Positions 1 to 52,182 of a stretch of DNA of 52,182 bases are shown piece after piece. The stretch is taken from positions 1-52,182 of IMG/VR virus record IMGVR_UViG_3300046680_000196, one strand, 5' to 3'. The notes beneath the pieces were generated by a model. The model was given only the letters and a program-made list of their open reading frames with translations. It was not told the origin of the DNA and made no database searches. The position numbers and the translations under genes are program-made. This DNA comes from a virus. Every line of letters begins with the position of its first letter. Position 1 is the stretch's first letter.

Positions 1-104
1 TCTGAGCGTCGTCCTGACGCTCCCGGGAATCGCCTGCATAAAAGCAATGAAGGAATGAATTACTGAATAGGAAGGCTGCGGACCGGGCGCGCGACGCGCT
101 CGAG
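1..104. repeat. Terminal repeat identical to 710-813
   Basis: Positions 1-104 match 710-813 base for base and diverge at 105/814. The copy holds the 3' flank and last codons of a DGR target gene, including the conserved GC-rich end of the variable repeat. The same segment therefore follows both target genes, so either target gene and flank were tandemly duplicated or the window edge lies in an assembly repeat. Confidence 0.95.
4..22 (-). other. Hairpin downstream of VR1
   Basis: A 7-bp perfect stem (4-10 with 16-22) and 5-nt loop lie about 54 bp past the end of VR1 in coding sense. The same hairpin recurs at 713-731 after VR2. In the BPP-1 DGR a hairpin or cruciform beyond the variable repeat is needed for efficient retrohoming; a similar role here is inferred from position only. 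Confidence 0.5.
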
Positions 105-650
105 GTCCTTGCCGTAGACGCTGAGCCAGCCATCTACAAAGCCCATGCCGTAGGCGCTGCCGGCGGAGAACTGCGAGCTGGTCCAGTGGTAGCGCTTGCT
201 GAAGACATTCTTGTCGCCCAGCGTGATCTCCAGAAACGAAGCCTCGCGACGGGACATCAGATGAAAGTCCTTGTGACCCTCGCGCTCGAAGGCGGCACAG
301 AACTGTGCTGCGGGGTAGGAGTCATCTGCACCGATCAGATCGTCCGTGTTTGCTCGGCCATCCCAAGCACTCTTCGCACCGTTGAGTTCGTTGCCGTAAC
401 CACCCCATTCGAACTCTCCCTCAGCATCGGCGCCGGTTGGGACGATCAGGTAGTAGGGCTTGCCGTCGCCCGGGAACAGGCCACCGTTAACGCCACCTTC
501 GCCTGGCCAAACCTCGCCAACGGCTGGGACGCCGATCAGACTTGCGACTGGCTTTGCCGCGGCGACCATCCCGGAGAGAACTTGCAGAGCCAACTCCGGG
601 TTCGGCGTGGAGAGCGTGGTGGTTCCATCACTTACGTTAATCAGTTGCAT
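60..650 (-). CDS. DGR target protein 1, C-type-lectin-like (DUF1566-like) C-terminus
   Basis: 196 aa. The start at 650 was chosen because an AGGAG box sits 7 bases upstream; the frame stays open further but without a comparable site. The C-terminal part reads WTSSQFSA, then the diversified stretch, then ERVARPVRSLPIQ. This matches the layout of DUF1566/Lcl-type C-type lectin folds used as DGR targets. About 35 C-terminal residues are encoded by VR1 (76-176), which differs from the TR only at template adenines. I do not recognise the N-terminal about 150 residues; there is no signal peptide. It lies directly downstream of target 2 and was probably transcribed towards avd and the RT. Function is presumed to be binding of a variable ligand; the ligand is unknown. 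No tail gene adjoins it. Confidence 0.88.
   Translation of the reverse strand: MQLINVSDGTTTLSTPNPELALQVLSGMVAAAKPVASLIGVPAVGEVWPGEGGVNGGLFPGDGKPYYLIVPTGADAEGEFEWGGYGNELNGAKSAWDGRANTDDLIGADDSYPAAQFCAAFEREGHKDFHLMSRREASFLEITLGDKNVFSKRYHWTSSQFSAGSAYGMGFVDGWLSVYGKDLERVARPVRSLPIQ
76..176 (-). repeat. Variable repeat VR1
   Basis: Aligned without gaps to TR 51276-51376. There are 14 differences in 101 positions, all where the TR has T on the plus strand (A on the coding strand): 103, 104, 107, 112, 116, 118, 119, 121, 136, 142, 148, 157, 160, 161. The GC-rich end at 78-102, which would be the initiation of mutagenic homing (IMH) element, is identical to the TR. Homology ends sharply at both borders. 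Confidence 0.95.
162..288. repeat. 127-bp segment identical to the window end (52056-52182)
   Basis: The last 127 bases of the window are identical to 162-288. Both lie in the body of a DGR target gene just upstream of the variable region in coding sense, while the variable parts next to them differ (63-161 versus 51957-52055). A terminal identity of 127 bp is also a common k-mer length in short-read assembly, so the window end is probably a graph break at a repeated gene body. Confidence 0.9.
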
Positions 651-768
651 GGGATGCTCCTGTGAGCGAATTGGGCGCAGGCCGCCGGCGCTACCCGGCA
701 AGCTTCTGGTCTGAGCGTCGTCCTGACGCTCCCGGGAATCGCCTGCATAAAAGCAATGAAGGAATGAA

Positions 769-1245
769 TTACTGAATAGGAAGGCTGCGGACCGGGCGCG
801 CGACGCGCTCGAGAGCCTTGACGTCGTAGTAGAGCCAGCCAACTTCAAAGTCCACGCCGTAGGCGTTGCTGGCGGAGAACTGCGAACTCAGCCAGTGCCA
901 ACGATCCTCGCGCAGGGTGACCAGGCCTTCGGCCTTCGCTGCCATCAGCAGAGCGCCTTCGAGGTAGGACGGGATGTGCGCATCCAGCTGCAGCGCTTTC
1001 ACCGCGATATCGCTGCCGGCTTCAGCCATGGCGCGAGTGTTGGCGGCGCCGTCGCTAAGGCTTTGGGCGCCGGCAACGTCATCGCCGTACTTGCCCCAGG
1101 TGCCAATCAGCTCGTTGTCGAGCAGGACGAGTGCGCGCTCTTCGCCGTTCAACCAGTAGCGAGTGACGAAGGTGCCACCTGCGAGAGGTTGACCGCGTTC
1201 TGGCAGGTCGGCGGCGGATACGGATTGCTGTGCATGTTGAGTCAT
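769..1245 (-). CDS. DGR target protein 2, C-type-lectin-like
   Basis: 158 aa, starting at 1245 behind a GGAG box 6 bases away; an upstream in-frame ATG at 1290 lacks a clear site. The C-terminus follows the family pattern (WLSSQFSA, variable region, ERVARPVRSLPIQ) and is encoded by VR2. The N-terminal part is shorter than and different from target 1, with a tryptophan-rich segment around residues 30-60. It is therefore a paralogue with the same diversified module, not a simple copy. It is followed by the same 59-bp 3' flank as target 1, then the target 1 ribosome site, which suggests co-transcription. Confidence 0.85.
   Translation of the reverse strand: MTQHAQQSVSAADLPERGQPLAGGTFVTRYWLNGEERALVLLDNELIGTWGKYGDDVAGAQSLSDGAANTRAMAEAGSDIAVKALQLDAHIPSYLEGALLMAAKAEGLVTLREDRWHWLSSQFSASNAYGVDFEVGWLYYDVKALERVARPVRSLPIQ
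785..885 (-). repeat. Variable repeat VR2
   Basis: Ungapped alignment to TR 51276-51376 gives 13 differences. Twelve are at template adenines (T on the plus strand of the TR). One, at 814, is a coding-strand C to T change and is the only exception in the three active-looking repeats. The IMH-like GC-rich end is intact. Confidence 0.93.
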
Positions 1246-1301
1246 GGTTTTCTCCGGGTATGCGCCGCCCTCCGAAACCGGATGCAGCATGAAAGGTTGG
1301 G

Positions 1302-1967
1302 TTATTGCTTCGGTACTTTCTGGAAGAAAGCAGGGCGAGGGCCGCCGCGTTTTGCCTTGGGATAGTCGATTTGGAACTTTTCGAGGATGCGAATGAATGC
1401 TGGGAAAGTGATGCCTGCCTTTTCTCGTGCCTGGTTGCGTGTCAGGCCAAGTTCTTTGAATGCCTTGATGCGCTCTGCGTCCTTGGCGTCCTTGGCTTCG
1501 TCTACTTCGTGCGGCCTTAGATTTTGGTGGCCAATATACGTGGCAACCTGAAAGCTAAATCCGCCTTCTTTGGCGATAGTCATGAGCAGCTTTCTTGATT
1601 TGCCTGTGGCCCTCATCGCCTGCGTGTAGTTCATGGTCAGCGCGAGTTCGCGTGCCTGCTCTGTCAGCTTGTTGCGTTCCTTCAAGCGCTCAGCGGTGCG
1701 TTCGTCTCGTTCTATCTGGCGATTGGTCTTCTGCCGGGCGGCGGCTGCCGTCAGTGGCTTTGGCGGTTTTGGCGGCTCGATCTTTGCGGGGACAACTGGT
1801 TTCGGTGGCGGCTCATGTCGTTCAGGCGCCGGTTTGAAGCTCGGCCCGGACAGAACCTCAATAGTCCCTCCTTTTTCAAGCCAGTCCGCCTGTAGCAGGG
1901 CCAGCTCATGACGTTTCGGATCTAGCTCCTTGACCATGTTGATATCGCTGCTGATGTAGGCGTTCAT
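1302..1967 (-). CDS. Phage protein with helix-turn-helix-like segments
   Basis: 221 aa, start at 1967 preceded by GGTGATC. The first 30 residues are followed by a proline-rich linker (about 40-75), a charged probable coiled coil (about 75-108), and two segments that read like DNA-binding helices (NYTQAMRATGKSRKLLMTIA around 112 and GLTRNQAREKAGITFPAFIR around 174). The repeated plan of an ALTMNYTQAMRATG unit and an ELGLTRNQAREKAG unit suggests two related HTH motifs. It is the last gene of the early minus operon before the DGR targets. A regulatory or DNA-binding role is inferred; I do not recognise the family. Confidence 0.7.
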   Translation of the reverse strand: MNAYISSDINMVKELDPKRHELALLQADWLEKGGTIEVLSGPSFKPAPERHEPPPKPVVPAKIEPPKPPKPLTAAAARQKTNRQIERDERTAERLKERNKLTEQARELALTMNYTQAMRATGKSRKLLMTIAKEGGFSFQVATYIGHQNLRPHEVDEAKDAKDAERIKAFKELGLTRNQAREKAGITFPAFIRILEKFQIDYPKAKRGGPRPAFFQKVPKQ

Positions 1968-1973
1968 GGTTGA

Positions 1974-2597
1974 TCACCGTGGAATACTTGCCAGTGTTGT
2001 TTGCACCAACTCAAGGAATTTGGCGCGGCGGTCTTGCAGGCGCTTCAGCTCGTCCTTGAAGTCGTCTCGGGTCTGCCGGTAAACGATTAGCTGGCTGGCC
2101 TCGGGGAATTCTGAGCAGTAACTGATGAAGTCGACCCAGTCAGCGTCGGCACAATCAATGTGCCCAACAAGCTGCCAGCGATAAGCCGGGTCAAATGACT
2201 TGCGCTTGAGGTTGGCGTAATGCACGGCGGCAGTTACCGACTTGATCTCAAGCACGCCTTTTTCGCCGATGCGGCCGTCTGGAGAATCCCCGAACGTTCC
2301 ACAGTCAAAGAAGCCTCCGTTCGTGACATCGACGAACTCGGCGTCCTCGTAGAGCATGCGGGCGATCGGCTCCTGTTCGTGGCCACGATCCATGTGATCC
2401 GTGGAGAAACTGAACTCGGCTTTGCGCCCGGTCGCCAGTTCCAGAGCGATCTGAAGTGCGTACTTCTTCGCCGGTTCACCGAACGCCGCGCCGTCGTTGG
2501 CCATGATGCAGCCGAAGTTCGAAGCGGTGGCCTTGCCGAGTCTCAACGCCTGCCACACCTCGGTGTTTTGAGGAACGTCATGCCACACGCGATTCAT
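1974..2597 (-). CDS. YqaJ-like (lambda-exonuclease-type) recombination nuclease
   Basis: 207 aa. The start at 2597 has a GGAGGAATG box 9 bases upstream and overlaps the upstream gene by 20 bp. The N-terminus ASNFGCIMAND resembles the YqaJ signature, H73-E75 is followed by the catalytic pattern SPDG (D107), then E117-I-K119, the PD-(D/E)XK core. Enzymes of this family digest one strand from duplex ends and work with an annealing protein in phage recombination and concatemer formation. The neighbour 2578-3099 is in the place where an annealing or ssDNA-binding partner would be expected. Confidence 0.88.
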   Translation of the reverse strand: MNRVWHDVPQNTEVWQALRLGKATASNFGCIMANDGAAFGEPAKKYALQIALELATGRKAEFSFSTDHMDRGHEQEPIARMLYEDAEFVDVTNGGFFDCGTFGDSPDGRIGEKGVLEIKSVTAAVHYANLKRKSFDPAYRWQLVGHIDCADADWVDFISYCSEFPEASQLIVYRQTRDDFKDELKRLQDRRAKFLELVQTTLASIPR

Positions 2598-3099
2598 TGG
2601 CGCATTCCTCCATGAGTTGCTGCTGGTGGGCATCAGTGATGGATACGCGGGCCAGTACAGCGTCAAGATTGCCGTCGCGCTTGTAGGCTGCCTTGGCGTT
2701 ATTCCAACCCTTCTGGTTCTCTGGAGTAAGCCATGCAATGACCGGAGCCTTCGGGCTGATCCGCAATCCTTCCAGCGTCTCTTTGCCGAACTTGACGTTG
2801 CTGTCGACGTAGACAGTCACCTTGAAGCCTGCCCAGTCCTCAATGAACGGCGAGCCGGTCAACGAGCGCATGGTCTTGCTGTTGGTCGCGTTGAGGATCA
2901 TCGGTTTCAGCTTCTCGCCGGGCCGCAGCTCCCGTTCCGCGAAGTGCGCGGTGTTGAACACATCTTTCGTCTTCTTGGTTTTGTCCGTCTCCAGCGATAC
3001 CCGATTGATGGTGAGGATCGTCGGCTCGACGATATCGGCGCTGCTCAGATAGGGCGAGTCGAACGCCTTTCTGAAGTGGGTTTTCGATTCGTTGCTCAT
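2578..3099 (-). CDS. Conserved early protein next to exonuclease, possible recombination partner
   Basis: 173 aa. The start overlaps the stop of the upstream gene (ATGA at 3096-3099), and its own 3' end overlaps the exonuclease by 20 bp, so the three genes are translationally coupled. It is rich in K/T and charged residues, with no RecT, Bet or Erf motif that I recognise and no cysteines for a zinc site. The location suggests an ssDNA-binding or annealing helper of the exonuclease, but that is only inference from position. Confidence 0.75.
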   Translation of the reverse strand: MSNESKTHFRKAFDSPYLSSADIVEPTILTINRVSLETDKTKKTKDVFNTAHFAERELRPGEKLKPMILNATNSKTMRSLTGSPFIEDWAGFKVTVYVDSNVKFGKETLEGLRISPKAPVIAWLTPENQKGWNNAKAAYKRDGNLDAVLARVSITDAHQQQLMEECANESRVA

Positions 3100-3377
3100 T
3101 CTGACTCCTGATACCGCTGGTTCCAGGCTGCTTCAGCCTTTTCGTGTGCATCGGCGTGATACCACTCCTTCACATGTTCCGGCGCTACCTGTTCAATCTC
3201 GCCATCGGCATTCTTGTACTGGTTTATCGGCACAGGGCTTTCGACACGCTGTAAGAGGCCGGGAAAGGGACGGCTGTACTTGCACTGCTCACAACCGATA
3301 GAAATCCCTCGATCGTATGCAGTGACGATCGGAACAGACCCGCAAAACGGGCAGCATGACAAATTATTCATAGACAT
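3096..3377 (-). CDS. Lar-like zinc-ribbon protein
   Basis: 93 aa, start at 3377 with GGGGAG 8 bases upstream. The N-terminus contains CPFCGS (C-x2-C) and a second pair C-x2-C about 20 residues later (GCEQC), followed by a tail ending AWNQR. This is the layout of Lar/restriction-alleviation small zinc proteins of phages (typically CPFCG...C..C...AWN.R). Lar of Rac relieves type I restriction by modulating the methylase. Here the fold is well supported; the anti-restriction role is family knowledge, not shown. Confidence 0.75.
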   Translation of the reverse strand: MSMNNLSCCPFCGSVPIVTAYDRGISIGCEQCKYSRPFPGLLQRVESPVPINQYKNADGEIEQVAPEHVKEWYHADAHEKAEAAWNQRYQESE

Positions 3378-3417
3378 GACGGCTCTCCCCGCCATGCAGG
3401 CGGCGTGTGAGTTCGAG

Positions 3418-5671: not shown

Positions 5672-5700
5672 ATAAAAAGCCCGACCTAAGCCGGGCTTTA
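5672..5700. terminator. Bidirectional intrinsic terminator
   Basis: AAAGCCCG-acctaag-CGGGCTTT with A-runs and T-runs on both sides can fold on either strand. In minus direction it would stop PL transcription before the early operon unless antitermination acts. Confidence 0.7.
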
Positions 5701-6118
5701 CTCACTCACGCAGACCTCCCTACGTGAGAGTGAATGCGCCTCCTGCTGGAGGGCTTGGCTGTCTGTTACATGGCTGCAAATCCTCCGCGTGGCCGTATAG
5801 GTTCGTGCGCCGTCCAATCGGGCGCTTGCAGCTGTACCTGCATGGGGGTGTGATCTGCGCGGAAGGCAAGCCCCGCTTTGCGCCTCTGAGTGCGCCCCCT
5901 CAAGCCACGCTCCGGTGATTTCTCACTGCCTGGTCGTGGTCTCGCGTTCCTCCCGAGGTTGCGAACCCTCGCTTTTCGGCTAGCTGCCAGCGCCTTAATG
6001 TCTGCTGGCGGTTCAGATCACACTCCGATGCACCCTATCTAAACGAGTTTTCCCAGAGAGATATCGGGCCGATTTACGTCAGGCGGACGCGCGACGAAGA
6101 TCAAAAGCAATAAATGAA
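5701..6118 (-). other. Interval without a confident gene; long open minus frame
   Basis: On the minus strand one frame is open from 6017 to a stop at 5766, but has no ATG until 5843 (25 codons left) and only a TTG at 5903. Its end reads RADHTPMQVQLQAP and PIRPRGGFAAM. This C-terminal pattern recurs in short hypothetical ORFs of Pseudomonas mobile elements, as far as I recall, and resembles ash-type leader regions. It could be a conserved structured RNA or a leader peptide rather than a protein. GGAGG precedes an ATG-TAA at 5766-5771. Confidence 0.35.
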
Positions 6119-6598
6119 TTACTGAATAGGCAATCTGCGGACAGGGCGGACGAGCCGCTCGTCGCTCTTGCCGCAGTAGTAGATCCAGCCATCTCCGAAG
6201 TCCACGAGGAAGGCGTCGTCGGCGGAATACTGCGAACTCGACCAAACCCAGCCAGTCAGCCTACCGTTGAGGTTCAGCCATATCTCATAAAGCTCGGCAG
6301 CGGCGGGAAGGTAGAAGTCGGCATGACCTTCTGCCTTGTGCTCGTAGGCGGCAACTGCTGCTGGGTATTCACCATCGGAATCAACCAGTGCGGCGGTGTT
6401 GGCCATCCCATCGATCAGGCTGCTGGCTGGCGACAGGTCGCCGTACGGACCCCACTCAAAACTGCCCAGCTCATCACCAAGGATCAGGTGGTAACTCGAC
6501 TATGTACCGCGTGCAGGCATTACGCCTGCGTAAATTCCGCCTTGTCCTAGCCAAACCTCACCAATGGCAGGTGGCTGAATACTCTGCGCTGTGTTCAT
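6119..6598 (-). pseudogene. Fourth DGR target gene, interrupted by an in-frame amber codon
   Basis: The reading frame starts at 6598 (ATGA overlap with the upstream gene, AGGAAAT nearby) and runs to 6119, 159 codons plus stop, with a single TAG at 6500-6502 after about 32 codons. Both halves stay in the same frame and align with target 1: GEVWLGQGG before the stop, then FEWGPYGDL, ANTAALVDSD, WSSSQYSA and RLVRPVRRLPIQ after it. So this is a full-length paralogue with one nonsense mutation, or a gene read by suppression. Its repeat carries many non-adenine changes, including the homing end, so it is unlikely to be a current target. Confidence 0.85.
6135..6235 (-). repeat. Degenerate variable repeat VR4
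   Basis: Ungapped against TR 51276-51376 there are 23 differences, 13 at template adenines and 10 elsewhere (for example 6143, 6149, 6150, 6154, 6155 inside the GC-rich homing end). It was once diversified by this or a related TR but has since drifted, or belongs to a diverged DGR lineage. Confidence 0.8.
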
Positions 6599-6916: not shown

Positions 6917-6945
6917 ATTTAAGCTTGCTTAAAAGGCTACGTCAA
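6917..6945 (-). promoter_or_regulatory. Promoter PL
   Basis: On the minus strand TTGACG (6940-6945), 17 bases, TTAAAT (6917-6922). The -10 box lies within the first operator (6919-6932) and the -35 box within the second (6942-6955), so repressor would block it. It would drive the minus-strand operon. Confidence 0.75.
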
Positions 6946-6977
6946 GCATGCTTACTAAAAAAATTTAGCATGCTTAA
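6919..6977. promoter_or_regulatory. Left operator cluster (three repressor sites)
   Basis: Three 14-bp near-palindromes fit TTAAGCATGCTTAA: 6919-6932 (TTAAGCTTGCTTAA), 6942-6955 (TCAAGCATGCTTAC), 6964-6977 (TTTAGCATGCTTAA), spaced 22-23 bp centre to centre. The same sequence recurs three times between repressor and Cro-like genes. This is the OL half of a lambda-type control region. Confidence 0.85.
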
Positions 6978-6989
6978 TCATGGTGCGAC

Positions 6990-7013
6990 AAAAAGCCCGC
7001 GCTAGGCGGGCTT
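6990..7013 (-). terminator. Terminator of the repressor gene
   Basis: On the minus strand AAGCCCGCC-tag-CGCGGGCTTTTT lies just after the repressor stop (7041) and before PL. It would separate repressor transcription from the PL operon. Confidence 0.75.
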
Positions 7014-7040
7014 CAGTGACAAATCTATTAGACGTTCGGT

Positions 7041-7769
7041 TTAGATGTCTCCGTCGAAACTGTGGGCTACGTATCTCCCGATGACGGATACATGCTCAAG
7101 CTGGTCAGGGTTCAGACTTTCATCTGGATTCTTCGCGGAGTTGTCGGAGCGAATGATAAGGCCTCCGTCGAATCTTTTATATAGCCGCTTGATACGCAAT
7201 TCGTTGCCGTACCGGATCCCATAAACCTTACCGTCCTGAATTGCGGTGTTGCTTAAGTCAAGTGTGACCTTGGATCCCTCCGGGAGTGTTGGCTCCATCG
7301 ATTCGCCAGTGATTATGAAGTCTGAAAGATTCTTGGGGTTCAGCCGCTTTCGCCTAATCCAATCCATCCGATATGCGTTTCCCTGATCCTGGTGCACTTC
7401 CTCTATCACCATTTCTCCCGTCCCTGCTGCAAATCTCACCTCAATGCGAGGCACGATAATGAACTGGTCATTTGGAAGATCCTCAGGCGCTTCCCACGCA
7501 ATAACATTTTGCCCCGGAGTGAATGGTTCCGGGACTCCCTCACCAGTCGCGATCCACCTTGCGCTAACTCCTGACTCTGAAGCCAGGGCGAAAAGGTTCT
7601 CTGGTTTTATAGATGCGGTTTCGCCAGTCGTCCACTGAGTAACGGCGGATGGGGACACACCGCAGCGCTTCGCCATCTCGCTTTTAGAGAGCTTGCTGTG
7701 CTCGATCGCCAATGCCACCCGCTCATGCCGACCGGCAGGCTCTGAAACATCTCGTCCGAAAAAATTCAT
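7041..7769 (-). CDS. CI/LexA-like prophage repressor with autoprotease
   Basis: 242 aa from ATG 7769 (AGGG 8 bases upstream). Residues about 15-60 form a helix-turn-helix (SKSEMAKRCGVSPSAVTQW). The C-terminal half is an S24 peptidase: cleavage site Ala115-Gly116 (FAAGTG), nucleophile Ser157 (ITGESMEP) and base Lys194 (ELRIKRL), 37 residues apart as in LexA. RecA-stimulated self-cleavage would induce the prophage. It is divergent from the Cro-like gene, with three palindromic operators between them and three more beyond its 3' end. Confidence 0.95.
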   Translation of the reverse strand: MNFFGRDVSEPAGRHERVALAIEHSKLSKSEMAKRCGVSPSAVTQWTTGETASIKPENLFALASESGVSARWIATGEGVPEPFTPGQNVIAWEAPEDLPNDQFIIVPRIEVRFAAGTGEMVIEEVHQDQGNAYRMDWIRRKRLNPKNLSDFIITGESMEPTLPEGSKVTLDLSNTAIQDGKVYGIRYGNELRIKRLYKRFDGGLIIRSDNSAKNPDESLNPDQLEHVSVIGRYVAHSFDGDI

Positions 7770-7789: not shown

Positions 7790-7860
7790 TTAAGCGAGCT
7801 TAATTCCGTCGAGGTTAAGCATGCAGTGCCGTCTTGCGCTTGCTCATTAAGCATGCTTAA
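7790..7860. promoter_or_regulatory. Right operator cluster (three repressor sites)
   Basis: Sites 7790-7803 (TTAAGCGAGCTTAA), 7815-7828 (TTAAGCATGCAGTG, right half degenerate) and 7847-7860 (perfect TTAAGCATGCTTAA). They sit between the repressor and Cro-like genes. The perfect site overlaps the PR -10 box, so it is the likely strongest repression site. Confidence 0.88.
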
Positions 7861-17556: not shown

Positions 17557-17632
17557 GCCGCTTAAGCATTGACGGCGATGCAGCTCGCTCGTAACGAGAC
17601 GACACCAGGTTCGAATCCTGGAGGCGGCACCA
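17557..17632 (+). tRNA. tRNA-Thr-like gene, anticodon CGT
   Basis: 76 nt with encoded CCA. Acceptor 17557-17563 pairs with 17622-17628 (one G-T), D stem GCAT/ATGC with GG in the loop, anticodon stem with four pairs and a G-A mismatch at the outer pair, loop CTCGTAA, 5-nt variable loop, T arm CCAGG-TTCGAAT-CCTGG. Positions 8 and 14 are A and T, the reverse of the usual T8-A14. CGT would read the Thr codon ACG. It may be functional, to boost late translation, or slightly degenerate. Confidence 0.75.
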
Positions 17633-38359: not shown

Positions 38360-38378
38360 AACCACTCATTCAACTCTA

Positions 38379-38403
38379 TGCCCGCCTTGTGCGGGCTTTT
38401 TTT
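38379..38403 (+). terminator. Intrinsic terminator before the fibre gene
   Basis: GCCCGC-cttgt-GCGGGCTTTTTTTT, with the fibre ribosome site immediately after. Confidence 0.75.
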
Positions 38404-38413
38404 TGGGGATTCC

Positions 38414-39877
38414 ATGGACAGACAGATTGTTTACCCGGGCCAGATCCTGCCGGAAACCAGCCTTCTTCAGATGACGAAGGACACCATGATCGGAGCGGCC
38501 AAGCTTGCTTCTGCGCTGCTCGGAACCAGCACCATGGCGACCGGTTTTGCGGTAACGCCAACAGGCCCAGCATCCCTACAGGTTCTGTGCGCTCCGGGCG
38601 AGATCTATAGCCTTACCGCCATCGACGCCTTGGCATTTTCGACTCTGCCGGCCGATACCACCCACTCGATTCTCAAGCAGGGGATCATGCTGGATGGCGT
38701 CACGCTTAGCTGTGCGGCCCCAGGCACGACTGGGCAGTCGATCAACTACCTCGTTCAGGTCACGTACCAGGATTCCGACTCGACGCCTGTACTGCTGCCT
38801 TATTACAACAGCGCCAACCCGTCTATGCCATACAGCGGCATGGGTAATAACGGCCTGACCCAAAACACCGCCCGCAAAGGAATTGCTGTCGTAGCAGTGA
38901 AGGCGGGCGCCTCTGCGGCCACTGGCACCCAAGTCACTCCGTCTCCTGATGCGGGTTACATCGGCCTGTATGTCGTAACGGTCGCGTTTGGCCAGACCAC
39001 CATCACGTCCGGGAACATCACCACCGCACCGAATGCGCCGCTGATCAATAGCACGCTTCATGGCTTGACCCCTGTGTTCTCCGTGAACCCATCTGTTCCT
39101 GTCGCGACTGTTGCCGCTCACGCCGTGACCTTCGGGCAGATCTCTGGTCTTGTAGGATCGGTGCGAAACCTTCGCTGCTCGGTCGCCGCCACTTCGGCAT
39201 CAGCCACCATCACCGCAGACGAAATCATCGTTGAGTCCGCGCTGGGCGGGTTGCGCTACTGCCTGTCGTCCTTCAACAAGACGATCAACCTCGGCGGCAC
39301 AGGCGCCGGCGGCATGGATACCGGCACGGCGACCGCGAACGGCTTCGTCGGCATCTATGCAATCTACAACCCGACTACGCAGGTTTCAGCGCTCCTGGCC
39401 ACGATGGAAGCCTCTGCTGTTCTGCCAAGTGTCTACGGGGGCGCGAATATGCCTGCCGGATACACGGCTTCGGCTCTGATCTCGGTTGCGCCGATCAGCG
39501 CCACGATCGGGCAGTTTGCACAGTTCTTCCAGTTGGACCGGTATATCGATTACCTAGGCGTTGGGGTTCTTACCAGCAGCACGGCCATTGTGACGGGTCA
39601 GGCGCGCGGCTCAACAGGGATTCCTTATAGCGCGAAGTTCGTGAGTGGTTTCAACCAGGTTGGTAACTCTGCCGCGACAGCTGTATCGCAGATCCTGACG
39701 TCTACGCCGGTCTCGACAGTAGGTGGTCAGTTCAACTCCTGCAACGTTACTGCCGGCTCGTCGCAAGCTATTCCGTTCCGAGTCGCCATTTCCGTTCCGC
39801 AGAATATTTACCAGACCACCACCAGCGGGGCTGGCACTCCGAGTTTCACGATCAGTGTGAAGTCCTACGAATTCTGA
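38414..39877 (+). CDS. Tail fibre or spike protein (not a DGR target)
   Basis: 487 aa from ATG 38414 with GGGGATTCC upstream. N-terminal MDRQIVYPGQILPETSLLQM attaches to the baseplate; the rest is Ala/Gly/Thr/Ser-rich beta sequence with an end resembling a shallow beta domain (NIYQTTTSGAGTPSFTISV). No variable-repeat homology at its 3' end, so host-range diversification is not by the DGR in this gene. Confidence 0.8.
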   Translation: MDRQIVYPGQILPETSLLQMTKDTMIGAAKLASALLGTSTMATGFAVTPTGPASLQVLCAPGEIYSLTAIDALAFSTLPADTTHSILKQGIMLDGVTLSCAAPGTTGQSINYLVQVTYQDSDSTPVLLPYYNSANPSMPYSGMGNNGLTQNTARKGIAVVAVKAGASAATGTQVTPSPDAGYIGLYVVTVAFGQTTITSGNITTAPNAPLINSTLHGLTPVFSVNPSVPVATVAAHAVTFGQISGLVGSVRNLRCSVAATSASATITADEIIVESALGGLRYCLSSFNKTINLGGTGAGGMDTGTATANGFVGIYAIYNPTTQVSALLATMEASAVLPSVYGGANMPAGYTASALISVAPISATIGQFAQFFQLDRYIDYLGVGVLTSSTAIVTGQARGSTGIPYSAKFVSGFNQVGNSAATAVSQILTSTPVSTVGGQFNSCNVTAGSSQAIPFRVAISVPQNIYQTTTSGAGTPSFTISVKSYEF

Positions 39878-42931: not shown

Positions 42932-44110
42932 TCACGCCTGTTTCCTCTTCAAGATCGTCAGCACCGGTCCACGCGAATCGGTTGCTGATACCATGTTCGC
43001 AGCTTCAATCAGATGCCCGAGCTCGGCGCCCGAGTAGTGACTGGTGATGCTGCCGTTCTTGTGGCCCAGAAGTGCCTTGCGGTCTTCCTCGGTTACGCCT
43101 GCTGCGCGCAGCCGACGGCCAAACGTGTGTTTGAGGTCATGAATCCTTATGGATGCATAACCTGGGTGAGCGGGGCGAAGGTTTTCCTCCTGCCAGAGTT
43201 TCGCCGCTCTCACCCGCGCCTTCTTCCAGGCCGAGTCGTTCATCCGGTGTATTGCGTTGCCGTTGTAAGGGAAAACCCAATCCTTGCTCAGGCCGCGCTG
43301 CTGCTCGATGATCGATTTGGCCACGTTGTTGAGCACGACCAGTCGCTCATCACCGTTCTTCACCCCGGACCGTTCGTGTCTGCCGCCGAAATCAGCCGGG
43401 ATCAGAAACACGCTGGTCCCGAGTTCCGGCACCGAAATCTCCCAATCCCACCTCAGCTTGCAAACTTCCTGCTCCCGCGTGCCGGTGTTCACCTTGAACA
43501 GCGCCATCGTTTGCAGGTGGGCCGGCAACTCCCCAAAGAGAATCGACTGCTCCTGCCATGACATCGGGTACGGCTTGCGGCTCGACTTCTTCTCTTCCAG
43601 CTTCGTGAGCATCGGCACGCTATCCAGCCACGGCCTGCGCTCATCATCTCGCCACTTCCTGGCACACAACGACAAAACCCGAACCACACGCTCGATCGAG
43701 ATATTCACCGTCCTGTTGCTGACTCCCTTCTTTATTGTCCCGTCCTCCAGCTTCTTGGTCGCCAACCTGTCCTTGATAAACGGCGCTAGAGCCTGGTCAT
43801 CAATATGGGTCAGCGGCAAGTGACCTATGAATGGGTGAAGCTGTGCAAGGTGGTGCCCCGACAGTTTGATCGAGGGCTGATCCTTGAACTCTAAAAGGAA
43901 GCGCTCCGCTGCCTCCTCCCAAAGCCTTACCGTCTTAACTCCATACACCTTCTGCTGGCGAACCTGCTCCATCCTGAAAATCAGGTAGCGCTCGGCTTCT
44001 TCCCTGTCACCAGTTCGAGTGCTTTCATAAAGGCGTTCTCCGTTGATCTTCTTGTCGATATGCCAGATACCTTTCCTTTGAGAGAGGCCTGTGATCGATT
44101 TTCGCGCCAT
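42932..44110 (-). CDS. int: Tyrosine-recombinase integrase
   Basis: 392 aa. N-terminal arm domain (AITGLSQRKGIWHIDKKING-like, about 1-45), core-binding SAM-like helix region (about 75-190), catalytic domain with Arg in NTGTREQEVCKLRW, HDLKHTFGRRL (His-x-x-Lys-His variant of the HxxRH box) and the LLGHKNGSITSHYS tail, which gives the final His and Tyr. It mediates recombination at the tRNA-Pro half beside it. Convergent to the late operon. Confidence 0.95.
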   Translation of the reverse strand: MARKSITGLSQRKGIWHIDKKINGERLYESTRTGDREEAERYLIFRMEQVRQQKVYGVKTVRLWEEAAERFLLEFKDQPSIKLSGHHLAQLHPFIGHLPLTHIDDQALAPFIKDRLATKKLEDGTIKKGVSNRTVNISIERVVRVLSLCARKWRDDERRPWLDSVPMLTKLEEKKSSRKPYPMSWQEQSILFGELPAHLQTMALFKVNTGTREQEVCKLRWDWEISVPELGTSVFLIPADFGGRHERSGVKNGDERLVVLNNVAKSIIEQQRGLSKDWVFPYNGNAIHRMNDSAWKKARVRAAKLWQEENLRPAHPGYASIRIHDLKHTFGRRLRAAGVTEEDRKALLGHKNGSITSHYSGAELGHLIEAANMVSATDSRGPVLTILKRKQA

Positions 44111-50175: not shown

Positions 50176-51333
50176 TCATTTCTTCGGATAGGTTTTGGTG
50201 AGGGAGCCATTGACGCTATATCCGCGCTTTAGCACGACGTTGGCCAGCTTCTCGCGGTCTTTCTCGCTGTGGCTGGCCTGACTGAGCAGACCGAAGTAAC
50301 TGTTGGCGGTTTCGCGCAGATCCTCGGCGGGTGCCGCAGCGGTCCGTTTCAGTGCCTGGGCTAGTGATCGCTTCCGCGTGGTCCGCCGCCAGGGCTTGAT
50401 GACGTGTCCAACGAAGTCGACGCCTCGGTCCACCGGTTGAAGGATGGTCTTCGTCGGATTCAGCTTGGCGCCGAGGGTCGACAGGAACAATTCAACCTCG
50501 GCCTTCCAGGCGTTCAACTGTTGTGGCGAATCATGCAGGAACACGAAGTCGTCGACGTAGCGGACGTAATGCTTGGCGCCGAGCCGGTGCTTGGCAAACT
50601 GATCCAGCGCGTCGAGGTAGACGTTGGCGAAGAACTGCGAGGAAAGGTTGCCGATCGGCAGGCCTAGGTGCGCCGGTTGCGCTGTCAGGCGCTTGTGCTG
50701 CGGCACCCGGTTGAACAGATGGGCGGGGCTGCGCAACACGTAATCTTCGCGCGGGTCGTGCATCAGGATCGTTTCGGCCAGCGACAGCCACCAAGGCTCG
50801 GTGATCTTCTTGGCCAGCTGATGGCGCAGCACCTGCTTATCGATCGCGACGAAGAAGTTGGCGAGATCGCACTTGAGGTAGAAGATCGGCTTCGCCCAGT
50901 TTTGGCTGGCGCTGCGGATCTTCGATTCAAGGCGTTTCGCGGCGTACAACGTGCCGCGCCCTGGGATGCACGCACAACTGTCCGCTATGAAGCTGGCGTA
51001 GAAGCGCGGTGCCACATGGTTGTACATAAGGTGGTGGACGACGCGATCCCGGAACGCTGCTGCCCAAACCTCGCGGGCTTTCGGTCGGGTGACCACGAAG
51101 CAGATGGAGCGGCCTGGCCGGTAGGTGCCGGCGATCAGGTCGTCGTGGAGCTCCAGCAAGTTGATCTCCATATCCTTCTCGAAGTACCGGGCGCTCGCGG
51201 TGTTCCGCTTGTTCCGGCGGCAGTCGTAATACGCTTGGACGAGATCTTCGAACTGGAAGGGTGCAACACTTAAATCTGCGGACCGGGCGCGCGACGCGCT
51301 CGTTGTTCTTGTCGTTGTTGTTGAGCCAGCCAT
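50176..51333 (-). CDS. DGR reverse transcriptase
   Basis: 385 aa if translation starts at ATG 51333. RT blocks: FRDRVVHHLM, YLKCDLANFFVAID (Asp156, palm), GLPIGNLSSQFFAN (225-237, with the SQ of DGR enzymes instead of SP) and YVRYVDDFVF (YVDD 259-262, catalytic), then GVDFVGHVIKPW. No maturase domain. It copies the TR RNA and misincorporates at adenines, with Avd. Strikingly, ATG 51333 lies inside the TR, and no good ribosome site or later conserved ATG is seen, so the true start is uncertain. Confidence 0.92.
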   Translation of the reverse strand: MAGSTTTTRTTSASRARSADLSVAPFQFEDLVQAYYDCRRNKRNTASARYFEKDMEINLLELHDDLIAGTYRPGRSICFVVTRPKAREVWAAAFRDRVVHHLMYNHVAPRFYASFIADSCACIPGRGTLYAAKRLESKIRSASQNWAKPIFYLKCDLANFFVAIDKQVLRHQLAKKITEPWWLSLAETILMHDPREDYVLRSPAHLFNRVPQHKRLTAQPAHLGLPIGNLSSQFFANVYLDALDQFAKHRLGAKHYVRYVDDFVFLHDSPQQLNAWKAEVELFLSTLGAKLNPTKTILQPVDRGVDFVGHVIKPWRRTTRKRSLAQALKRTAAAPAEDLRETANSYFGLLSQASHSEKDREKLANVVLKRGYSVNGSLTKTYPKK

Positions 51334-51376
51334 CTTCAAAGTCCATGTCGTAGGCGTTGTTGGCGGAGAACTGCGA
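51276..51376 (-). repeat. DGR template repeat (TR)
   Basis: The 101 bp read in coding sense FSANNAYDMDFEDGWLNNN and DKNNERVARPVRR, with the AAC codons typical of DGR templates. It has 27 adenines on the coding strand; 21 of these are changed in at least one of VR1-VR3. It lies between avd and the RT core and overlaps the start of the RT frame. It is transcribed but not translated as lectin, as no start and no gene body precede it. Confidence 0.95.
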
Positions 51377-51545
51377 CCTATCAAGCTATCTACATCGCCT
51401 TGCCGAAGGCGGAACCGATCAGCAAGGAAACTGCACAAGACCTACGCGGACGCTTTAGACCGGCGGTATCTTTTGTGTGCATGGCGGTGACCCAGAGGCC
51501 AGCGGCTCGACCAGATTTTGCGCACAGGCGCGAGAGCCTTGGCCC
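51377..51545 (-). other. avd-TR spacer, no gene
   Basis: 169 bp between the avd stop and the TR. No supported gene. In DGRs the RNA flanking the TR contributes to priming and RT/Avd binding, so this and the TR-RT junction are likely part of the functional template RNA. Confidence 0.5.
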
Positions 51546-51899
51546 TCACCCAGCGGGCGCGGTTGCGGACTTCTTCCAGGCATTTGCCTGTCGACCTACA
51601 GATGCCGTTAACTTCATTGCTTTGGCGTGCTGCCCTTTACTGATCAGCGCTTTATTGGTAAGCGCTCGCAGCAAGTAATTCAGCATCCAAATGCTTTCCA
51701 GTAGGAGGTTCAGGTGGGGCAGCTTGTCTCGCGACATGTTGGCCCGACCAATCAGCACCAGAACCTGCAGACACTCGTCTCGAATCTTCGCTCCTACGAC
51801 CTGTTTAAGGTCGCGAGGGATGTTGCGCACCAGGTCGAGCGACATGCCAAGCAGTTCTTCTGCAACCTTGTGGATCTCCAGATCCATGTGAAGGGCCAT
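51546..51899 (-). CDS. avd: DGR accessory variability determinant (Avd)
   Basis: 117 aa from ATG 51899 with AAGGAGG upstream. All-helical, basic protein (DLEIHKVAEELLGMSLDLV, NIPRDLKQVVGAKIRDECLQ, RDKLPHLNLLLESIWMLNYL), in keeping with the pentameric four-helix bundle Avd family, usually about 120-130 aa. It binds the RT and template RNA and is needed for mutagenic cDNA. Lies between VR3 target and TR. Confidence 0.9.
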   Translation of the reverse strand: MALHMDLEIHKVAEELLGMSLDLVRNIPRDLKQVVGAKIRDECLQVLVLIGRANMSRDKLPHLNLLLESIWMLNYLLRALTNKALISKGQHAKAMKLTASVGRQANAWKKSATAPAG

Positions 51900-51920
51900 C
51901 CTGGCCTCCTTGAAAAGCGA

Positions 51921-51936
51921 GGGCGCTATCGCGCCC
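51921..51936 (-). other. Hairpin downstream of VR3
   Basis: GGGCGC-tatc-GCGCCC, a 6-bp GC stem with a GATA loop on the coding strand, about 34 bp after the end of VR3. It differs in sequence from the hairpins after VR1/VR2 but keeps the feature. It overlaps the region just before avd. Confidence 0.55.
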
Positions 51937-51956
51937 ATGAATGAAGGATTGAAGGA

Positions 51957-52182
51957 TCAAATAAATCGTCTGCGGACCGGGCGCGCGACGCGCTCGCTGC
52001 CCTCGTCGTAGCCGTAGAGCCAGCCACCTACAAAGACCAAGACGCAGGCGTCGTTGGCGGAGAACTGCGAGCTGGTCCAGTGGTAGCGCTTGCTGAAGAC
52101 ATTCTTGTCGCCCAGCGTGATCTCCAGAAACGAAGCCTCGCGACGGGACATCAGATGAAAGTCCTTGTGACCCTCGCGCTCG
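51957..52182 (-). CDS. DGR target protein 3 (5' end cut off by window)
   Basis: Only the last 75 codons are present: FHLMSRREASFLEITLGDKN and WTSSQFSA (identical to target 1 upstream of the variable part), then the variable stretch from VR3 and ERVARPVRRRFI. The start lies beyond 52182. It precedes avd. It differs from target 1 at the C-terminus (RRRFI against RSLPIQ) and 3' flank, so it is a real additional gene or the true end of the gene whose body is at 162-650. Confidence 0.85.
   Translation of the reverse strand, partial: EREGHKDFHLMSRREASFLEITLGDKNVFSKRYHWTSSQFSANDACVLVFVGGWLYGYDEGSERVARPVRRRFI
51970..52070 (-). repeat. Variable repeat VR3
   Basis: Ungapped with TR 51276-51376: 15 differences, all at coding-strand adenines of the TR. 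The GC-rich homing end is identical to the TR. It is the avd-proximal target repeat. Confidence 0.95.

Follow-up and report, generated by a model that had tools for sequence, protein, structure and literature searches.

The DGR of phage BPP-1 is built from a reverse transcriptase (RT), the accessory protein Avd, and a TR/VR pair; it mutates adenines and places its VR at the C terminus of the target, in a C-type-lectin-like domain. The usual explanation of phage DGRs is that they let tail proteins switch receptors, and, to our knowledge, all the well-studied ones act on a receptor-binding protein. Viral DGR targets were classed as structural or unknown by Roux et al. Putative conflict systems of multicellular bacteria are also DGR diversified, and their targets are reported as probably acting in conflict, not attachment (PMC10907252); as described there, those systems are chromosomal and bacterial, unlike the phage early genes considered here. 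For Burkholderia phage Magia (MT701587), described as a myophage, genes 47 and 57 were named as possible DGR targets in 2021, and adaptation or a change of host range was proposed, without remark on the early position of these genes (PMC7883833). A literature search of incomplete coverage found no description of early-operon DGR targets as a class.

Here we analyzed a stretch of viral DNA of 52,182 nucleotides (the window; IMG/VR record IMGVR_UViG_3300046680_000196), the source of which is a temperate lambdoid Pseudomonas-type phage. The window contains a complete DGR, comprising RT, Avd, an RT-15 RNA with the TR, targets T1 and T2, a truncated target T3, and a decayed target T4, with all parts on the minus strand and spread over both contig ends. 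The RT, Avd, TR/VR, adenine mutagenesis, and C-terminal VR in a C-type-lectin-like domain are shared with BPP-1; whereas BPP-1 diversifies one tail-tip protein (Mtd), in the window two to four genes are diversified, all of the early operon and facing the other way from the tail genes. A repeat of ~132 nt is present in five copies (54-185, 763-894, 6113-6244, 51254-51385, and 51948-52079), and the adenine-rich copy, at 51254-51385, is that of the template repeat. The TR itself was delimited to 51276-51380 (minus strand); it adjoins the RT and shows the donor pattern in its differences from the VRs. The RT gene (50176-51246, minus strand; true start uncertain, near 51250) matched RVT_1 (E 5.1e-15) and phrog_1423 (E 2.8e-115), and the motifs IGNLSSQ and YVDD were read in its sequence. 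Avd (51546-51938, minus strand; 130 aa) matched bAvd (PF22296, E 1.7e-15) and phrog_3206, annotated as Avd protein of DGR (E 1.1e-28). The RT-15 RNA (51374-51562, minus strand; Rfam RF03018, 163.5 bits, E 1.8e-39) overlaps the end of avd and the 5' end of the TR and probably forms the leader of the template RNA; in phage Cruim01 this RNA is annotated at the equivalent place, between avd and TR. Assignment of the RT to a DRT family, on the basis of PADLOC matches, was rejected: the matches reflect the common RT domain, and the presence of Avd, TR, and VRs decides for a DGR.

The targets matched phrog_4245, with the profile covering their C-terminal parts. T1 (60-650, minus strand; start codon at 648-650, stop at 60) encodes 196 aa (E 1.2e-30) and has its C-terminal VR at ~54-185; T2 (769-1245, minus strand) encodes 158 aa (E 3.7e-23), with its VR at ~763-894; T3 (51968-52181, minus strand; E 3.6e-07; VR at ~51948-52079) is truncated where the window ends, leaving just its 3' part; and T4 (6119-6598, minus strand; E 2.8e-16), the first gene after OL, is decayed, with one in-frame stop. 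The T4 copy is intact in a relative, L011. Long open frames run antisense to the targets at 186-665 and 895-1365 (plus strand). VR-TR mismatches were counted over a 102-nt core with 28 TR adenines and 74 non-A positions. The T1 VR was changed at 15 of the 28 adenines and at none of the 74 other positions (p 1e-10), and the T3 VR gave the same counts (15/28 and 0/74); T2 was changed at 13/28 adenines and 1/74 other positions, and the decayed T4 at 13/28 and 10/74. Summed over the near targets of relatives, 2078 of 4544 adenines were changed, versus 290 of 11256 other bases. A DNA hairpin lies downstream of the VR, with 7-bp stems at T1 and T2 and a 6-bp stem at T3, and none was found at T4. Stems of at least 6 bp followed the VR in 62 of 66 avd-proximal targets, compared with a mean of 4.5 after the TR and in shuffles, and the hairpin was weaker in distal targets (at least 6 bp in 22/67).

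At its end, the window repeats positions 162-288 exactly over 127 nt (the constant part of T3 equals that of T1), so the contig break lies inside T1 sequence. From this end identity, assembly seems to have broken off at a repeated word; circular closure of the contig is reasonable, and T3, as a second tandem copy of T1, may lack some of its sequence. The 3' flank of T1 is the same as that of T2 over 104 nt, and relatives have the order T2-T1-avd, with T1 carrying the avd-side flank. The simplest reading is that unequal crossover recently produced a tandem duplication, although the arrangement may instead be an assembly or population chimera; the main conclusions are independent of this question.

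Along the minus strand, the upstream half of the gene order runs from cI (7769-7041) through OL, T4 (6598-6119), early genes, g1302, T2 (1245-769), and T1 (650-60) to the contig end, past which follow T3, Avd, the RT-15 RNA, TR, RT, more early genes, and the integrase (44110-42932). The cI gene (7041-7769, minus strand) encodes a CI-like repressor (phrog_4, E 1.8e-39). T1 and T2, 118 nt apart and both on the minus strand, are downstream of g1302 and of a YqaJ-type recombination exonuclease (1974-2600, minus strand; PF09588, E 1.4e-13), and the target operon also carries a gene for a Lar-like restriction alleviation protein (3096-3395, minus strand; phrog_599, E 7.1e-06). A tyrosine integrase (42932-44110, minus strand; PF00589, E 2.4e-13) lies at the promoter-distal end of this leftward operon. 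The initial annotation had placed the targets after the recombination genes on the minus strand and near the integrase after circular closure, and both placements were borne out; RT, Avd, and integrase follow one another on this strand when the contig ends are joined. Elsewhere in the window, a tRNA-Thr (CGT) gene (17557-17632, plus strand) lies between the replication and packaging genes.

The control region upstream of T4 resembles that of a lambdoid PL operon. Operators like TTAAGCATGCTTAA gave eight matches in the window, versus 1.08 expected. Three, at 6919-6977, form the OL cluster (6917-6977, minus strand) and match the sites beside cI, and two are OR operators between cI and cro (7790-7860); the same five sites are present in L011. 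A candidate PL, TTGACG-N17-TTAAAT (6945-6917, minus strand), which was read by eye and is absent from the list of the automatic scan, overlaps the OL group. A terminator-like hairpin follows cI (6975-7030, minus strand; -18.4 kcal/mol, z -2.8, then a T-run), and a stronger, tL1-like hairpin follows T4 (5676-5699, minus strand; z -5.3), as expected for an antiterminated early operon. The targets are downstream of OL and have the strand and direction of the recombination genes and integrase. This organization suggests that the target operon is expressed early from PL under CI control; because CI operators stand at the operon head and a hairpin follows cI, early lytic expression, with low expression in the lysogen, is predicted.

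We consider it highly probable, from gene order and control signals, that the targets are early-operon proteins and not tail proteins. As we envisage it, RT, Avd, and the targets would be made together early after infection or induction, once CI leaves OL; the targets would be soluble binding proteins acting in the cytoplasm, and VR diversity would allow phage lineages to bind differing host or competitor macromolecules. Their most plausible purpose would be counter-defense or host takeover, like the Lar-like gene of the same operon. That the targets have a cytoplasmic counter-host role may be true or false with about equal probability, and counter-defense is the likeliest use, roughly balanced by all the alternatives together. 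The full statement, namely, a recently active temperate-phage DGR diversifying early-operon lectin-like proteins with a cytoplasmic counter-host role, would likewise have an even chance of being right. The early neighbors in relatives include methyltransferases or a host nuclease inhibitor; their association with the targets, like that of the Lar-like gene, is only suggestive, because such neighbors are common in early operons. Weighing against a counter-host role are the lack of any indicated ligand and an empty PADLOC result for the targets (no defense-family match for T1 or T2, with models that cover defense, not counter-defense), as well as the tail-placed homologue and tail-like fold relatives described below.

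The same control signals bear on the prophage-stage role that the initial annotation had put forward, in which the targets, produced in the lysogen, would protect the host by binding parts of superinfecting phages or of other invaders. Such a role would suit the early-left location, where immunity or exclusion genes are often found; the first target also adjoins cI in many relatives, phage Haboob has a glycosyltransferase in the place next to cI, and many copies reside in bacterial genomes. However, the CI operators at the operon head (three OL sites) and the terminator-like hairpin after cI predict repression in the lysogen, and no defense-family match was obtained. Prophage-stage expression of the targets thus appears less likely than early lytic expression, and a protective role in the lysogen, which now looks less likely than first written, is doubtful.

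The location of the targets was next compared across relatives. Viral contigs scanned with the RT gave 142 relatives, from which 80 loci were kept, and a further 38 loci came from bacterial genomes, every one of them Pseudomonas; 119 RT-bearing loci were counted, with kinship ignored. Upstream of the RT, avd was found in 118/119 loci and targets in 114/119. CI was upstream on the RT strand in 51 of the 119 loci and recombination genes in 45, neither ever being upstream on the opposite strand, and the integrase was downstream on the same strand in 45 loci and on the opposite strand in 4. In 21 cases, a distance of 3 to 10 kb separated a target from the RT, frequently placing it close to CI; these distal targets were still adenine diversified (287/607 adenines versus 44/1493 other bases). 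No virion probe matched within up to 10 kb on either side of the RT in the 119 loci; the probe set, made up of structural genes of the window plus two from phage Bise, could miss unrelated tail genes, so tail families were also located in 30 complete records. Among these records, Baseplate_J was opposite the DGR strand in 12/12 and Phage-tail_3 in 16/16, and a tail marker was opposite in all 25 distinct records having one; the tape measure profile PF10145 placed almost nothing. These distributions support the early-operon location as a rule of this DGR clade and agree with the original placement of the targets outside the tail module, within an early PL-type operon, a rule that holds in >100 relatives. 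In a sample of 199 Pseudomonas species genomes, the RT was present in 16 and a phrog_4245 protein in 20. Two phage records, U9 and Paride (L008 and L010), have genes annotated opposite the homologue's strand. A second DGR stretch, ~91% identical, is present at the far end of the record of L031 (G007; L151:7635-9533); the repeated VR/TR copies at the two ends of this record, considered as VR variants within the population, instead reflect this second cassette.

The structural genes of the window (sheath, tape measure, baseplate, and fiber) are on the plus strand. As initially annotated, the tail fiber (38378-39877, plus strand; phrog_11518 tail fiber, E 3.7e-35) has no VR, since the window repeat search found no copy of the ~132-nt repeat in it. 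The targets are on the early strand, in contrast to the BPP-1 type, in which the target is a late-operon tail or receptor-binding gene. Moreover, the targets do not follow tail type. Their constant parts were 97% identical between L024 (Baseplate_J) and L025 (gpJ-like Phage-tail_3), 94% between L031 (baseplate and sheath) and L070 (gpJ-like), and 93% between L043 and L063; identity outside the VR was 92 to 97% between phages with different tail types. Cruim01 is described as a siphovirus. A tail-tip part is expected to travel with its tail, so near-identical targets with different tails speak against such a part.

The fold of the targets was modeled with T1. The AlphaFold2 model had a mean pLDDT of 84.3, falling to ~60 in part of the VR, and aligned to the C-terminal domain of Legionella Lcl (8q4e) with Z 7.9 over 107 residues (VIA-align); a Z score below 8 is weak alone, but the profile (E 8.4e-06) and model agree on a putative C-type-lectin-type fold (Lcl_C/DUF1566-like). 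A Foldseek comparison of the model to the PDB yielded nothing significant, and the link to Lcl_C comes from the profile search and VIA-align. As an adhesin, Lcl is collagen-like and exported; T1, which resembles its C-terminal domain by fold and profile, lacks collagen-like repeats and an export signal. The viral structure matches to T1 include the D3 protein and also tail-like proteins. In Halomonas phage QHHSV-1, a target homologue lies in the tail module (L100:7836-8465), the only tail-placed one seen. Because of these tail-like matches and this homologue, fold alone does not reveal where the protein acts. The initial annotation had also taken the missing signal peptide to point inside the cell. 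The observation stands (a hydropathy of 1.6 within the first 38 residues was reached by 1 of 178 targets of relatives), but the argument does not: phage virion proteins, BPP-1 Mtd included, have no signal peptide either, so its absence does not separate cytosol from virion.

These data can be set against a role in the virion, in which targets made early would end up as minor tail or decoration proteins and bind host receptors in the manner of BPP-1, differing just in an unusual placement of the genes. Precedent among well-studied phage DGRs favors it, as do the QHHSV-1 tail-module homologue and the folds related to tail-like proteins, and the missing signal peptide fits it equally well. On the other hand, the targets were opposite the tail-gene strand in 25/25 records, no virion gene was detected nearby in the 119 loci, control is of the PL type, and nearly the same targets occur with gpJ-like (siphovirus-type) and baseplate-type tails. 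Virion decoration, which the initial annotation had allowed as a minor role, is therefore unlikely.

In the RT tree, the window, its relatives, Cruim01, SC_8, Haboob, LPPA56, QDWS, and Magia lie on one side of a branch with 100/99 support. Seven other phage DGR RTs, 31 to 36% identical, lie beyond it and adjoin tail or virion genes where annotated. The DGRs of ACA1, FP_Lagaffe, BalMu-1, phiARM81mr, Vibrio 1F273_PE002, and Bise share the RT family and Avd with the window but, unlike it, are in tail modules and adjoin tail or virion genes; the upstream gene in ACA1 is annotated as antireceptor and as homologous to a Vibrio phage one. The RT of VP585, the genes of which are unnamed, groups with that of ACA1. 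Within the clade, Magia has an RT 64% identical to that of the window, Avd, and lectin-fold targets, which are shorter (~120 to 126 aa); gp57 adjoins the repressor, and gp47 follows the RecT operon, upstream of the integrase. Because intermediate RTs are unsampled and branches are long, early placement may extend beyond the clade or be confined to part of it. At the level of sequence, the data demonstrate an adenine-specific DGR, selection on the target scaffold (see below), an early location conserved over the RT clade, and independence from tail type. We propose only tentatively that, throughout this clade, which comprises temperate phages of Pseudomonas, Burkholderia, and Shewanella, the DGR diversifies intracellular early binding proteins against variable host (defense) factors. 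With a large clade of diversified early-operon proteins, kept as fixed versions by DGR-less phages such as D3, an intracellular use of a DGR becomes open to direct test; cultured phages with this DGR are Cruim01, Haboob, LPPA56, Magia, and QDWS.

Diversification is recent. Between the window and the near-identical phages L011, L012, and L013, the constant parts of T1 and T2 differ by 0 to 1 nt, while the VRs differ at 12 to 20 of 102 nt, nearly all at TR adenines; near-zero change beside such VR change indicates recent activity. Within their groups, 157 of 174 VRs encode distinct protein versions (101/111 and 56/63). Such diversity might serve the phage itself if the targets bound phage early proteins, for example, and VR differences tuned decisions between phages. 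The targets do adjoin repressor and recombination genes, and for cyanobacterial DGRs a tuning of regulatory proteins has been proposed (PMC7517822). However, nearly every VR differs between phages with equal neighbor genes, which is hard to square with one conserved phage partner, and self-regulation is very unlikely.

The VRs also carry a record of constraint. None of the 174 VRs had an in-frame stop. Adenines in CAG, AAG, and GAG codons were changed in 0 to 2% of these VRs, compared with up to 87% for AAC codons. This contrast between neighboring adenines demonstrates, as a codon pattern, purifying selection that keeps the fold of the target scaffold, which argues that the target protein is made and used.

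Homologues without a DGR add to this picture. An early-region homologue close after cI, with no DGR in the stretch seen, was found in phi_D3, D3 (gp68), FBPa42, and PAN70. D3 gp68 (phi_D3 CDS0077; phrog_4245) is 56% identical to T2 over 123 residues and lies in the first region after cI; no RT was seen nearby, and, unlike the window targets, it is not DGR diversified there. Two intact targets are present in L014, L015, and L018, with no avd or RT detected, and Medea1 and Aurca01 keep two tandem targets, with no RT found in either; these five appear from gene content to be cases of DGR loss with targets kept. Because DGR-less phages keep a fixed homologue, the target protein seems to be useful without continuing mutation. 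The idea that the DGR is a largely idle passenger, its targets without current use and its VR variety only a record of mutation, could draw on the decay of T4 and on these phages with targets but no detected RT, yet it is scarcely credible given that scaffold codons are hardly ever mutated, stops are absent from the 174 VRs, and DGR-less phages keep fixed homologues.

Two minor observations concern these homologues. The homology of D3 gp68 (L153:44080-44640) to T2 stops where the VR-like part begins, and phi_D3, with a genome one base longer than that of D3, keeps the full frame; a discrepancy of one base in the D3 record, real or erroneous, is likely. A T2 homologue is also present in the jumbo phages Paride and MIJ3 (L010 and L154); that of Paride lies among small genes of unknown function.
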